Source: Blastocatellia bacterium (GTDB lineage Bacteria > Acidobacteriota > Blastocatellia > HR10 > J050). From it: a stretch of 38,945 bases of DNA. This document shows positions 3,101-33,891 of this stretch, in pieces. The stretch is from positions 1 through 38,945 of the forward strand of contig JANWZE010000066.1 in NCBI GenBank assembly GCA_025054955.1. Reading direction: 5' to 3'. Within the stretch, counting starts at the first letter, position 1. Every line of letters starts with the position of its first letter. Below the pieces are notes generated by a model. That model was given only the letters and a program-made list of their open reading frames with translations. It was not told where the DNA came from and did not search any database. The position numbers were made by a program, and so were the translations under genes.

Positions 3101-3149
3101 GCAGGAATTGTTCATGGCGCTCGAGCCGACGCCCAAAGAGAATGAAAAA
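3101..3149 (+). repeat. Dispersed element U, copy 2
   Basis: Begins GCAGGAATTGTTCATG, has a central stem GGCG (3116-3119) pairing with CGCC (3130-3133), and ends AGAGAATGAAAAA. It lies 87 bp before the start of the TerB-like gene, in the same direction. Confidence 0.55.
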
Positions 3150-3235: not shown

Positions 3236-3847
3236 ATGCCAAACACCCCATTTGACGAATTAAGACGGACAAAAGAGGAAGAATACTTCCGCAAGAAAGA
3301 GCAGGAACTGATCGAGAAATTGCGACGCCGCGCCACGCTCCAAGCGGAGCGACGTGAGATGGCCGAAACGAGCGGCATCACCAATGAAGATGTCTTACGC
3401 GACTTACAAGACCTCGGCTACACGCGCGAGACGGTCAGTCTTTGGCATCTGGTGCCGTTGTTGTATGTCGCCTGGATTGATGGCGACGTCACCAACCAGG
3501 AGCGTGAGCGTCTGCTGGAATTGGCGCGCACACGTGGCATCCAGGAGGGCAGCCCCGCCTATCAACAACTGGTGGATTGGATCAGTCATCGGCCGCCACG
3601 AGAATTCTTCGAAGGCACGCTTCGGGCTATTCGACATCTGCTGGCCTCATTACCATCAGGGGAGCAAGAGGCATGTCGGCAGGACCTCGTGGCTTGTGCT
3701 ACTCAGATCGCTGAAGCGTCTGGCGGTCTGCTGGGGTTGACGCCGAGCATCTCAAAAGCGGAACGGGAACTCATCGAGCGGTTCACCACCGAGCTGGTCA
3801 ATCATCATCAAGCCGCCGCGCAACAGGTGATGGCCGAATTGAGCTAG
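3236..3847 (+). CDS. TerB-like / DUF533-type helical protein
   Basis: 203 aa with two parts. Residues 1-45 are a highly charged helix (EEEYFRKKEQELIEKL) that could form a coiled coil. Residues 60-200 are an all-helical region whose LLYVAWIDGDVTNQERERLL matches the TerB/DjlA-type signature (helix, acidic turn, helix). The fold is found in tellurite-resistance TerB and co-chaperone proteins and often binds metal at the acidic turn. No signal peptide or membrane segment is seen, so it is likely cytoplasmic. GGAGG lies 5 nt before the ATG. Nothing nearby suggests tellurite resistance, so the name describes only the fold. It stands alone between repeat-rich gaps. Confidence 0.8.
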   Translation: MPNTPFDELRRTKEEEYFRKKEQELIEKLRRRATLQAERREMAETSGITNEDVLRDLQDLGYTRETVSLWHLVPLLYVAWIDGDVTNQERERLLELARTRGIQEGSPAYQQLVDWISHRPPREFFEGTLRAIRHLLASLPSGEQEACRQDLVACATQIAEASGGLLGLTPSISKAERELIERFTTELVNHHQAAAQQVMAELS

Positions 3848-3924: not shown

Positions 3925-3976
3925 ATTTTCACAGGAATCGCCCATGAGCGCCGCGCTCGCCACGAAGCATGAAAAT
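3925..3976 (+). repeat. Dispersed element U, copy 3 (best folded)
   Basis: Outer arms ATTTTCA (3925-3931) and TGAAAAT (3970-3976) pair perfectly. Inside, GAGCG (3946-3950) pairs with CGCTC (3954-3958) over a CCG loop. Between them are the family start AGGAATCGCCCATG and end CCACGAAGCATGAAAAT. A linker with TTCTTTCGTGAGGC...TTCGTGGGCG joins it to the next copy. Confidence 0.7.
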
Positions 3977-4012
3977 ACAATTCTTTCGTGAGGCTCGTGT
4001 GTTTCGTGGGCG

Positions 4013-4106
4013 ATTTTCAGAGGAGTTGTTCATGTCGCGCGGGACGACGCCCAGAAACGATGAAAAACGCCACAGGCGGGAACGCCTGTGCCACCTTTTC
4101 TGAGGA
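4013..4106 (+). repeat. Dispersed element U, copy 4, plus CACAGGC hairpin
   Basis: Outer arms ATTTTCA (4013-4019) and TGAAAAA (4061-4067); central stem GTCG (4034-4037) with CGAC (4045-4048). It is followed by a perfect CACAGGC/GCCTGTG hairpin and a T-rich run. The segment 4020-4106 is closely matched at 32755-32841. Its CATG could open a 23-codon reading frame preceded by GAGGAG. Confidence 0.75.
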
Positions 4107-4120
4107 CAAAGCGCCGTCGG

Positions 4121-4322
4121 CGCTTGGCTCTGCCGGCGCACTCCAGGAGAGAGTCAGGAGCGTATGAGAAATCGCTTTGGAGTGCGGCGGCAAGCCCGCG
4201 GGGCGCGACGCCGCTTTGGCCTGGTGGGTCGTGTTGGGAGCGAAAGCGCCGTCGGCGCTTGGCTCTGCCGGCGCACTCCAAGATGAAGTCAGGAACCACC
4301 CATGAGCGCCGCGCTCGCCACG
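4121..4322. repeat. Dispersed repeat R1, copy 2, ending in a truncated U element
   Basis: Full copy of the repeat that opens the window. The core GCGCCGTCGGCGCTTGGCTC occurs twice inside it (from 4111 and from about 4246), and an inverted relative (TTTGGAGTGCGGCGGC...) lies between. The last 32 bases (4291-4322) are a U element with the GAGCG/CGCTC stem, but the ATGAAAA end is replaced by a CACAGGC hairpin relative. The whole gap 3848-4429 is thus a mosaic of repeats, with no gene seen. Confidence 0.85.
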
Positions 4323-4429
4323 GCACAGGCAGGAATGCCTATGCTACATTCTCGCACGAGGAACTGAGGAGACGTCAGACGAGTCGTTGCACCTGATCTT
4401 CCAGGGACGTCCGTCTACTGACGTCCGAC

Positions 4430-7885: not shown

Positions 7886-8061
7886 CTGTACGGGGCGCTC
7901 GCTGTGGCGCCCCGCCCAAACGGCCTCGACTCTGACAGAGCCCAAGCTCGACAACATCCTGTACGGGGCGCTCGCTGTGGCGCCCCGCTCCTACTACCTC
8001 GACTCCGACAGAGCCCAAGCTCGACGACACCCTGTACGGGGCGCTCGCTGTGGCGCCCCGC
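7886..8061. repeat. 73-bp tandem repeat with three identical hairpins
   Basis: A 30-base block beginning CTGTACGGGGCGCTCGCTGT occurs at 7886-7915, 7959-7988 and 8032-8061. In each, CGGGGCGC pairs with GCGCCCCG over the loop TCGCTGTG. The spacers between blocks are also alike (CTCGAC..TGACAGAGCCCAAGCTCGAC), so the period is 73 bp. It lies in the divergent gap between dnaB and the secreted P-domain gene. Confidence 0.92.
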
Positions 8062-8116
8062 TCCTACTGCCTCGAATATGCAATTCTTTCGTGAAGTTCG
8101 TGTGCTTCGTGGGGCT

Positions 8117-8167
8117 ATTTTCAAGGGAATCGTCCCCATGCAACGACACACCACGAAGCATGAAAAT
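8117..8167 (+). repeat. Dispersed element U, copy 6
   Basis: Outer arms ATTTTCA (8117-8123) and TGAAAAT (8161-8167) pair perfectly, as in the copy at 3925. Inside are AGGGAATCGTCCCCATG and CCACGAAGCATGAAAAT. It is preceded by the TTCTTTCGTGAAG...TTCGTGGGGC linker. The central stem is not obvious in this copy. Confidence 0.6.
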
Positions 8168-26748: not shown

Positions 26749-27080
26749 ACTCCCTCCGATGATGTTTGGTTTGTTGCTGACTAAGTAAGGCCACCCAAGG
26801 TGACTCACCACGATCCATACCTACCACCTACCACTGAGCTTTTGAGCTTACGCCACCAGTCGCAACACCGCCTATTATTCACACGAGACCGCGCCATGTC
26901 CAGCATTTTGTGACAAGTTTCCTGGTCAAAATCCACACGGCGCAGGTGGTTTCGCGTCCTCGACCAGAAAAGCGTTTCGTCCGCGGACGCCAATCAGCAG
27001 TGGCTTGCTGGCAGCCATGAACCTTGTGCTTCGTTCAACGCACAACCAAAGCGGGGCGCAGGCGTCCCGCCTGTGATCCA

Positions 27081-27128
27081 TTCACATCGTTTCCGGGCGG
27101 CGTTACCGACGGCATGAACAACTCCTGC
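27081..27128 (-). repeat. Dispersed element U, copy 7, minus orientation
   Basis: Read on the minus strand it begins GCAGGAGTTGTTCATG, ends CGGAAACGATGTGAA, and is then followed by the palindromic CACAGGCGGGACGCCTG, the same order as at 4013-4106. The central stem is short (CCG/CGG). Confidence 0.6.
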
Positions 27129-27184: not shown

Positions 27185-27332
27185 TCGTTTTCCCCGTTTC
27201 TGGGGGGTGACTGGGTGACACGAGCAACTCCGCTGAGTTGCTCGCCAGATGCTTCTGGCTGGCTTCCTTCTCCAGGGCGGCTGCCAACGCTTCATTGTGG
27301 ACTTAGACTCTCTCGGAATGATCTATCCGCGC

Positions 27333-32484: not shown

Positions 32485-32636
32485 ACGGCTTACAATCTCA
32501 CGCCTGTGAATGATGATGCAAGGACTGCTTGTGTGCTCGTCATGTTTCAGAGGGTCAACATGCCACGACAATGTGACATGCGCCAACGAAATCGTGCCTG
32601 GCGATTGGTGTCATTCGTGGCTCACGTTGCAAGGCG

Positions 32637-32672
32637 TTCATGGAGCTTGGCGTCGCTCAGAAACGATGAAAA
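32637..32672 (+). repeat. Dispersed element U, copy 8
   Basis: TTCATG followed by the stem GAGC (32643-32646) with GCTC (32655-32658), then AGAAACGATGAAAA. The stem sequence differs from all other copies but still pairs. Confidence 0.6.
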
Positions 32673-32754
32673 TCTCGCCGCCGATGAACACGGCCGGGCA
32701 CGGATCAGGCGCGTCATCCGTGTGAAACCGTGTGTCCATCCGTGGTGGTGTTCG

Positions 32755-32841
32755 GAGGAGTTGTTCATGTCGTCTGAACGACGCGAGAGAAACGATGAAA
32801 AACGCCACAGGCAGGAATGCCTGTGCCACTTTTTCGGAGGA
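32755..32841 (+). repeat. Dispersed element U, copy 9, with CACAGGC hairpin, at the foldase start
   Basis: Close match to 4020-4106. The central stem is GTCGT (32769-32773) with ACGAC (32778-32782). The last bases CGGAGGA serve as ribosome site for the ATG at 32845. Confidence 0.8.
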
Positions 32842-32844
32842 GTC

Positions 32845-33891
32845 ATGAAGAAGATTCTACTGATGAGTTTGTTGCTCGTCAGCTTCAGCGCAGCCGGTTA
32901 TGCCCAAGAGGAGCCGGTGACGGTGGATGGCATCGTCGCGCGCGTCAACCGTGATATTATCACGCTCTCGGCCTATCGCCGCGCGCAAGAGGACCTGCGC
33001 CGTGAATTGGAACAGCAATTCCAAGGTCGAGAATTGGAAACCCAGTACCAGCAAGCGTTGAAGCAGTTGCTCCACTCGTTGATTGATACACAATTGCTTG
33101 TGCAGAAAGCTGATGAGCTGGGGCTGACCGTCGAAGCCGAGATTAACGAGTATCTGATTGAATTGGCCAAGCAGAATAAGTTTGCGCCTTCACAGATTGA
33201 CGACATGCTCCGCCAGATGAATCTGGACCCGGATCAAGCGCGGCAGTTGCTGCGTGTCCGTTTCTTACGCGAGCGTGTGATCGGGCGCGAAGTCTACCCG
33301 CGCGTCTTTCAAAACATTCTCGACAAGGACATTGATGAGTTCTATCAGAAGAACCTGGATCAATTCACCGAACCAGCCGCCGTCAAGCTCAGCGAAATCT
33401 TCATCAAGTTTGAAGGGCGCACGCGCCGCGAGGCCGCTCAGTTGATTGAGCAATTGGTGGCGCAGTTGATCGGTGGGGCCAGCTTCGCCGAATTGGCCAA
33501 GAAATACTCCAATGGCCCAACGGCGGCTGATGGCGGCAATCTCGGCTGGTTCAATCTGGAGCCGCGCCCCGAATTAGGCGAGGCTCAACGAAAAGCCATT
33601 GAGGGCAAACAGGTCGGACAGATCACCGACCCGATTGAGTTCGCCGATGGGATTCGGCTGCTGCGCATTGACGAGCGGCGTGAGCGAAAGGTCAACCCGT
33701 TGACTGCGGAGCTGCGCCGGCGCATCAGCATATTCATTGCTCAACAGCGGATTGAAGGGGCGGTCGAAGAATATCTGAAAAAACTGCGCGAGGACGCATT
33801 CCTCTGTATCGCGGCTCCCTATCGAAACAACGATGATCGTATCCCCAGTTGCTCCATCACTTCTGAGGTTAGGGCTTCCGCATCGAAATAG
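32845..33891 (+). CDS. Exported parvulin-type peptidyl-prolyl isomerase (SurA/PpiC-like)
   Basis: 348 aa from the ATG at 32845 (GGAGGA 4 nt upstream). The open frame reaches back to 32506, but a signal peptide begins only here (MKKILLMSLLLVSFSAAGYAQ). A SurA-type N-terminal helical domain (about 25-170: VDGIVARVNRDIITLSAYRRA) is followed by one rotamase domain (about 178-275: VKLSEIFIKFEG ... FAELAKKYSNGPTAADGGNLGW). It should work in the periplasm, helping outer-membrane proteins such as the TonB receptors to fold. The last 25 residues have no family match. The stop is 18 bp before pyrK, so it may be co-transcribed with the pyr genes. Confidence 0.93.
   Translation: MKKILLMSLLLVSFSAAGYAQEEPVTVDGIVARVNRDIITLSAYRRAQEDLRRELEQQFQGRELETQYQQALKQLLHSLIDTQLLVQKADELGLTVEAEINEYLIELAKQNKFAPSQIDDMLRQMNLDPDQARQLLRVRFLRERVIGREVYPRVFQNILDKDIDEFYQKNLDQFTEPAAVKLSEIFIKFEGRTRREAAQLIEQLVAQLIGGASFAELAKKYSNGPTAADGGNLGWFNLEPRPELGEAQRKAIEGKQVGQITDPIEFADGIRLLRIDERRERKVNPLTAELRRRISIFIAQQRIEGAVEEYLKKLREDAFLCIAAPYRNNDDRIPSCSITSEVRASASK

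Follow-up and report, generated by a model that had tools for sequence, protein, structure and literature searches.

The stretch of DNA analysed here, hereafter the window, covers 38,945 nucleotides and is contig 66 of a host assembly of 4.69 Mb that is 99.5% complete. Its intergenic stretches carry copies of Element U, a repeat present as several hundred tiny hairpin DNA elements, adjoining AGGA, in this Acidobacterium. The preliminary description had listed nine similar elements as one family with an AGGA..T....CATG start: the copies are real and related, but they fall into two related types, namely type A, with the layout AGGAATCGCCCATG-stem-GCCACGAAnnATGAAAAT, and type B, with the layout AGGAGTTGTTCATG-stem-GCCCAGAAACGATGAAAAA. 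We built two covariance models, R1 from 52 type B copies and R2 from 69 type A copies, both partly trained on copies of the window, so that several of the window matches arise by construction (those at 32630, 8124 and 4290 lie outside the training sets). Together the models recover all nine listed elements, with that proviso, and add a tenth at 27188-27234 on the minus strand.

On the plus strand, the first copy is a type A element at 169-211 (R2, 58.6 bits), which the module scan places between the end of a module D and module E words at 214-246. A type B element at 3101-3148 (R1, 49.9 bits, and the sequence itself) belongs to a unit that runs via its slot to TTTTTCGGAGGA, the Shine-Dalgarno (SD) sequence of the gene with its ATG at 3236. 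One array combines a type A element at 3932-3975 (R2, 66.4 bits); a module E at 3979-4011, lying in the slot between TGAAAAT and ATTTTCA; a type B element at 4019-4066 (R1, 72.8 bits); and, as the right end of that B unit, a module C hairpin with TTTTCTGAGGA at 4067-4107 (module scan; repeat D7, shared with 32788-32841). It is followed by a D/H module at 4121-4290 (repeat D1 and module scan) that ends in AAGTC before AGGA, and by a truncated type A element at 4290-4327 (R2, 26.3 bits) that runs into a C hairpin at 4321-4347. The D/H module is about 141 nt long, positions 1-141 being 95% identical to 4121-4261; it has long inverted arms, GGAGTGCG/CGCACTCC, and joins other modules at AGGA. Further along lie a type A element at 8124-8166 (R2, 44.1 bits) with a module E before it at 8083-8114; two minus-strand type B elements, at 27081-27128 (R1, 56.3 bits; followed on that strand by a C hairpin at 27052-27076) and at 27188-27234, the tenth copy (R1, 44.5 bits); and, again on the plus strand, a degenerate type B element at 32630-32672 (R1, 34.3 bits) and a type B element at 32754-32801 (R1, 65.3 bits). 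The last is continued at 32802-32844 by a module C hairpin, TTTTTCGGAGGAG and a spacer, the AGGAG here being the SD of the gene with its ATG at 32845. None of the A or B copies of the window lies in a credible gene, as had been claimed for all copies; in a wider 824-kb sample of the host genome 12 of the 222 A/B calls, which count some sites under both types, have their midpoints in crude gene calls.

Comparison of the copies reveals a full unit of the form AGGA / (G)TTGTTCATG or (A)TCGCCCATG, a short hairpin whose sequence is free, GCCCAGAAACGATGAAAA (another writing of the type B right flank) or GCCACGAAnnATGAAAA, a slot, TTTTC(A/T)G and AGGA /, where the slashes mark the borders of the unit. 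The slot holds another hairpin or a repeat word. The outer arms TGAAAA(T)/(A)TTTTCA, already noticed as ATTTTCA/TGAAAA(T) and taken for arms of the element, are indeed present; they belong, however, to a second palindrome, and it is in the loop of this palindrome that other repeat modules are housed. What defines the element is its slot together with the AGGA junction, both absent from the preliminary description. The modules found with it on the same strand in the intergenic stretches of the window are C, an ACAGGC..GCCTGTG hairpin; E, which consists of CACGAA words (CACGAA/TTCGTG); D/H, of the form GGAGTGCG..CGCACTCC; and the F and G hairpins.

We tabulated the 14 nt on either side of every AGGA in the arrays. 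Modules A, C, D and E end there and are continued, in many combinations, by the beginning of an A, B, F or H module or by a gene spacer with its ATG, and 62 of 65 multi-module arrays lie wholly on one strand. These context statistics rest on the 824-kb sample, which was partly picked around matches, so that its densities are biased upward; it yields 167 A calls and 55 B calls, with some sites under both, together with 83 C and 45 E modules. Among tandem genes, 35 arrays run in the sense and 11 in the antisense direction; 16 lie between divergent and 13 between convergent genes. A bias to the leading strand is not established: it is followed by 38 of the 60 arrays (p 0.05) and, outside tandem contexts, by 14 of 23 (p 0.4). 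In 28 of 118 cases the SD-preceded start of a long frame lies no more than 60 nt from the end of the array, as against 0 of 116 for the opposite ends read outwards (Fisher p ~1e-9) and 7.9% for random intergenic points; in the window this applies to the arrays in front of the genes at 3236 and 32845. Where the intergenic sequence of the host is free of arrays, 39% of AGGAG occurrences are themselves SD-placed. The SD coupling is thus no stronger than expected of intergenic AGGAG generally, and the best description of the target is AGGA(G), of which the SD is the common intergenic form.

Beyond the window, positions 3925-4072 used as a blastn query give 67 matches on many contigs of the host genome, and the 14-nt start motif, with at most 2 mismatches, gives 949 genome matches as against 185 for the reversed pattern, numbers well beyond what chance would produce. 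R1 matched 12 of 396 genomes of the phylum, mostly of the same class, with 8 matches in the more distant genome G126; the three weak, isolated matches beyond the class probably reflect chance. Copies are seen in the host (G000), G006, G018 and G126, with none detected in most relatives. Related copies are patchy across other Acidobacteriota families, and the common skeleton recurs with different slot contents in further families as well as, beyond the class, in G126. A scan with a strict B pattern of one genome per species, over 84,980 species, found eight stretches: five on Acidobacteria MAG contigs, one on a Blastocatellia MAG contig, one on a contig of a MAG labelled Deltaproteobacteria and one in Ureibacillus (L162), the last of which looks like chance. 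The Deltaproteobacteria-labelled stretch (L166, 350-600; JAHKKJ010000378.1) comes from a contig of 4.8 kb, where a real-looking B-type element neighbours a large GTTCGTAGTACCGGCTTCAGCCGG palindrome, and points either to inter-phylum transfer or to a misbinned contig.

The clearest view of the unit comes from sibling species of G018, in another genus of the class than the window's own species. G018 has about nine B units, all with one and the same slot hairpin, GGGACAGGTTCnGAACCTGTCCC. At locus L086 it reads CCCAA AGGAG/TTGTTCATG...CCCATTTTCTG AGGAG/CATCTTTCA ATG, whereas the empty sites read CCTTTTT AGGAG/CAATATCCA ATG in G043 and CTCCAC AGGAG/CACGATTCA ATG in G033, with flanks alignable on both sides. 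At L117 the unit of G018 faces an empty site in G033, the same place in G046 and G043 being taken by other, unrelated palindromic inserts; at L111 it faces an empty site in G046, with a further 13-nt difference. At these three loci of one genus, therefore, about 85 bp (the element, a species-specific hairpin and TTTTCTG) lie between AGGAG and the gene spacer, with AGGAG at both ends. L078 versus G009 was left out of the comparison because its upstream flank is not alignable. It follows from the alignments that the mobile unit begins immediately past one AGGA(G) and takes in the whole of the next; as the right-hand AGGAG has the former spacing to the start codon, the gene retains its SD. Either of the two flanking AGGA may stem from the host or from the element. 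Among eight assessable units of G018 five are clearly SD-coupled, a count that excludes L118, the flanks of which are not orthologous up to the element. The suggestion that Element U is a non-autonomous hairpin mobile element is supported by these insertions versus empty sites, by the hundreds of dispersed copies and by the free combination of modules at AGGA. A side observation concerns L125 and L127, where two siblings carry different, unrelated palindromic inserts before the same AGGAGG of the gene ATGCAAGCAGAAAG, as if the SD of this gene were a repeated target for several hairpin families.

While the flanks of the element are conserved, its centre varies freely. We picked copies by their flanks only and compared them with chimeras joining halves of different copies, a control that ignores the relatedness of copies: a stem of at least 4 bp is present in 34.5% of distinct host centres versus 16.3% (sd 3.0) in chimeras, and in 45.7% of distinct centres from other genomes versus 13.0% (sd 5.2). 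Paired column changes are likewise seen: in type B, column pair 21-27 is TA in 23, CG in 18 and GC in 2 copies, and at pair 19-29 CG, TA, AT and GC are all present; type A has 22 copies with TA and 19 with AT at pair 17-27. A possible outer pairing of type B, GTT-G-TTCAT with ATGAA-AAC, hardly covaries and is hence uninformative. As had been proposed from the nine copies, the stem thus appears to be kept as structure rather than as sequence, in the host and in other genomes alike, although template switching in hairpins could be an alternative source of the paired changes.

Such a stem might belong to an RNA, and an RNA motif had been one of the two original suggestions. In its fuller form this reading holds that a structured 5'-UTR RNA, a riboregulator or attenuator, stands before many genes and controls translation or termination; it would account for the sense bias of 35 to 11 in tandem contexts, the arrays ending in an SD, the paired changes in the stem and the TTTTT after C hairpins. 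We consider it very improbable. A search of the window against Rfam gave 0 matches at or above the gathering score, the RNAalifold consensus has zero energy, and G-T mismatches in the stems are in no excess over A-C, so that nothing points to RNA rather than DNA. Moreover, of 75 arrays 40 are either antisense or outside a tandem context, many copies being antisense to the adjacent genes or placed between convergent ones; the modules are shuffled and repeated, and sibling species have empty sites. An ATG does stand 3-12 nt past AGGA(G/A), most commonly at 6 nt, in 102 of 124 A copies and 40 of 45 B copies (84% overall), and a TGA overlapping GGAG closes some B+C units, both of which would suit small upstream ORFs in which AGGAG-N6-ATG opens a leader peptide coupled to the next gene. 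This is extremely unlikely: the phase from ATG to TGAAAA is mixed, all three being seen (40/26/7 in A, 14/13/5 in B), and the length of the uORF in type A ranges from 8 to 95 codons between the 10th and 90th percentiles, so that there is no conservation of a peptide or of a stop position. The ATG of the element may simply be part of the recognised DNA.

Two further explanations concern how the copies arose. It is quite improbable that there is no present transposition and that slippage, tandem duplication and recombination at AGGA and TTTTC words, with hairpins homogenised by template switching, produced the arrays. L050 has identical tandem units at a distance of 78 nt, all junctions share AGGA homology, and template switching can yield paired changes, all of which fits such a process; it fails on the single near-identical units at unrelated loci of G018 that are empty in its siblings and on the hundreds of dispersed copies. 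Movement as REP elements by a resident RAYT, a comparison already proposed in the preliminary description, is unlikely despite several resemblances. Like the REP/BIME sequences mobilised by RAYT (TnpA-REP; GTAG superfamily; PMC2817692, PMC3733652, PMC6006769), Element U is short, intergenic, palindromic, non-autonomous, clustered and present in hundreds of copies, with a stem kept as structure; moreover, Y1 genes are common in the class, and the host has a RAYT-like one. However, the foot of the hairpin is without a GTAG/GTGG tag (the bases before the inner stem are TCAT in B and CCAT/CTAT in A; alignments A4 and A5), the copies are co-oriented where REPs alternate, and they meet at AGGA junctions with SD regeneration. 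The stand-alone Y1 gene of the host, which encodes 148 aa (L031, 720-2210; G000:C135), lies amid dense tandem palindromes of the different, GTAG type (GTAGCCAGACGTGAAACGTCTGG) and is not flanked by Element U. Nor do Y1 genes track the elements: G006, 97% complete, gave 0 Y1 matches despite at least 14 copies (14 R1 matches), and none was detected in G008 and G009, though copies are present. On account of the Y1 gene's own GTAG repeats and of the copy-rich G006, we rejected a resident RAYT as the mobiliser. The other Y1_Tnp domain match of the host (L032, 1500-1773; G000:C75:22380) lies inside a 1324-aa open frame that also holds repeat words (GGGAACGCAGGCGTCTCGCCTGC) read in frame. An IS91-type Y2 transposase, also considered and rejected, was found only in G126 among eight genomes tested, and not in G000, G006 or G018.

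Taken together, Element U probably forms the core of one family of mobile DNA elements, short, palindromic and non-autonomous, in the Acidobacteriota, mainly the Blastocatellia. The right-hand AGGA of each unit would serve as the target for the next, which would lead to co-oriented mosaic arrays, and tandem duplication, as L050 suggests, may add further units. IS200/IS605 transposases cut next to a tetranucleotide (PMC6006769). The ends of such elements (IS608, ISDra2) offer an analogy in the tetranucleotide at the left end, its equivalent at the right end and the subterminal hairpins, and AGGA(G) flanks the insert on both sides at the three loci with empty sites; Element U differs in its AGGA target, in having no internal gene and in that no cognate Y1 transposase was found. 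From this resemblance in target, right-end tetranucleotide and shape-kept hairpins, a single-strand (HUH-type) endonuclease acting in trans is proposed to read the hairpin by its shape and cut 3' of AGGA, which is an uncertain proposal and the weak step of the explanation. The mobilising enzyme would either have been lost or belong to another family. Effects on expression would be tolerated by-products, given that the SD is regenerated. A more specific and tentative possibility is a distinct class of mobile hairpin that targets the SD core itself, placing an SD-spaced ATG downstream of the old SD and a fresh SD ahead of the old start codon, such that insertion would be nearly silent for translation and 5' leaders would grow into co-oriented SD ladders.

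By analogy, then, the family would work like REPs and the ends of IS200/IS605, while in identity we would treat it as an unnamed family rather than assign it to the REPs. CGTC-tagged REPs (PMC3733652) are also palindromic repeats without a dedicated transposase, but Element U has no unpaired CGTC tag, the CGTC of some B copies being inside the stem and lost in others. BOX, RUP and SPRITE of Streptococcus pneumoniae (PMC3049150) are likewise modular, clustered, parasitic and non-autonomous, with nested insertions and a lean to the coding direction; their sequence is unrelated, and neither an SD target nor SD regeneration is reported there. Classical MITEs, moved by a DDE transposase, have terminal inverted repeats and duplicate host sequence at the target; in Element U, AGGAG stands at both ends but may belong to the element, and the AGGA borders carry no long inverted repeat. 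We found no described AGGA- or SD-targeted hairpin element in the open-access subset of the literature that was searched; insertion at AGGA/SD with regeneration of the SD, and mosaic arrays that are co-oriented, are distinctive and, in that subset, undescribed. The family illustrates how a mobile element can shelter in the ribosome-binding site, the few most exposed bases before a gene, because it regenerates that site. It also provides a natural series of 5' leaders differing by whole modules and, as an orphan system, allows its enzyme to be looked for in a limited group of genomes, copies being present in G000, G006, G018 and G126 and undetected in most relatives. The window also holds two other repeats: a GTACGGGGCGCTCGCTGTGGCGCCCCG hairpin in three 73-nt tandem copies at 7886-8104, the third diverging, and, at 2818-2925, a 36-nt sequence, AGCAATCGTCAGCGCGCGCTTCAAGCGCATGCTCGG, present in two identical copies 72 nt apart.
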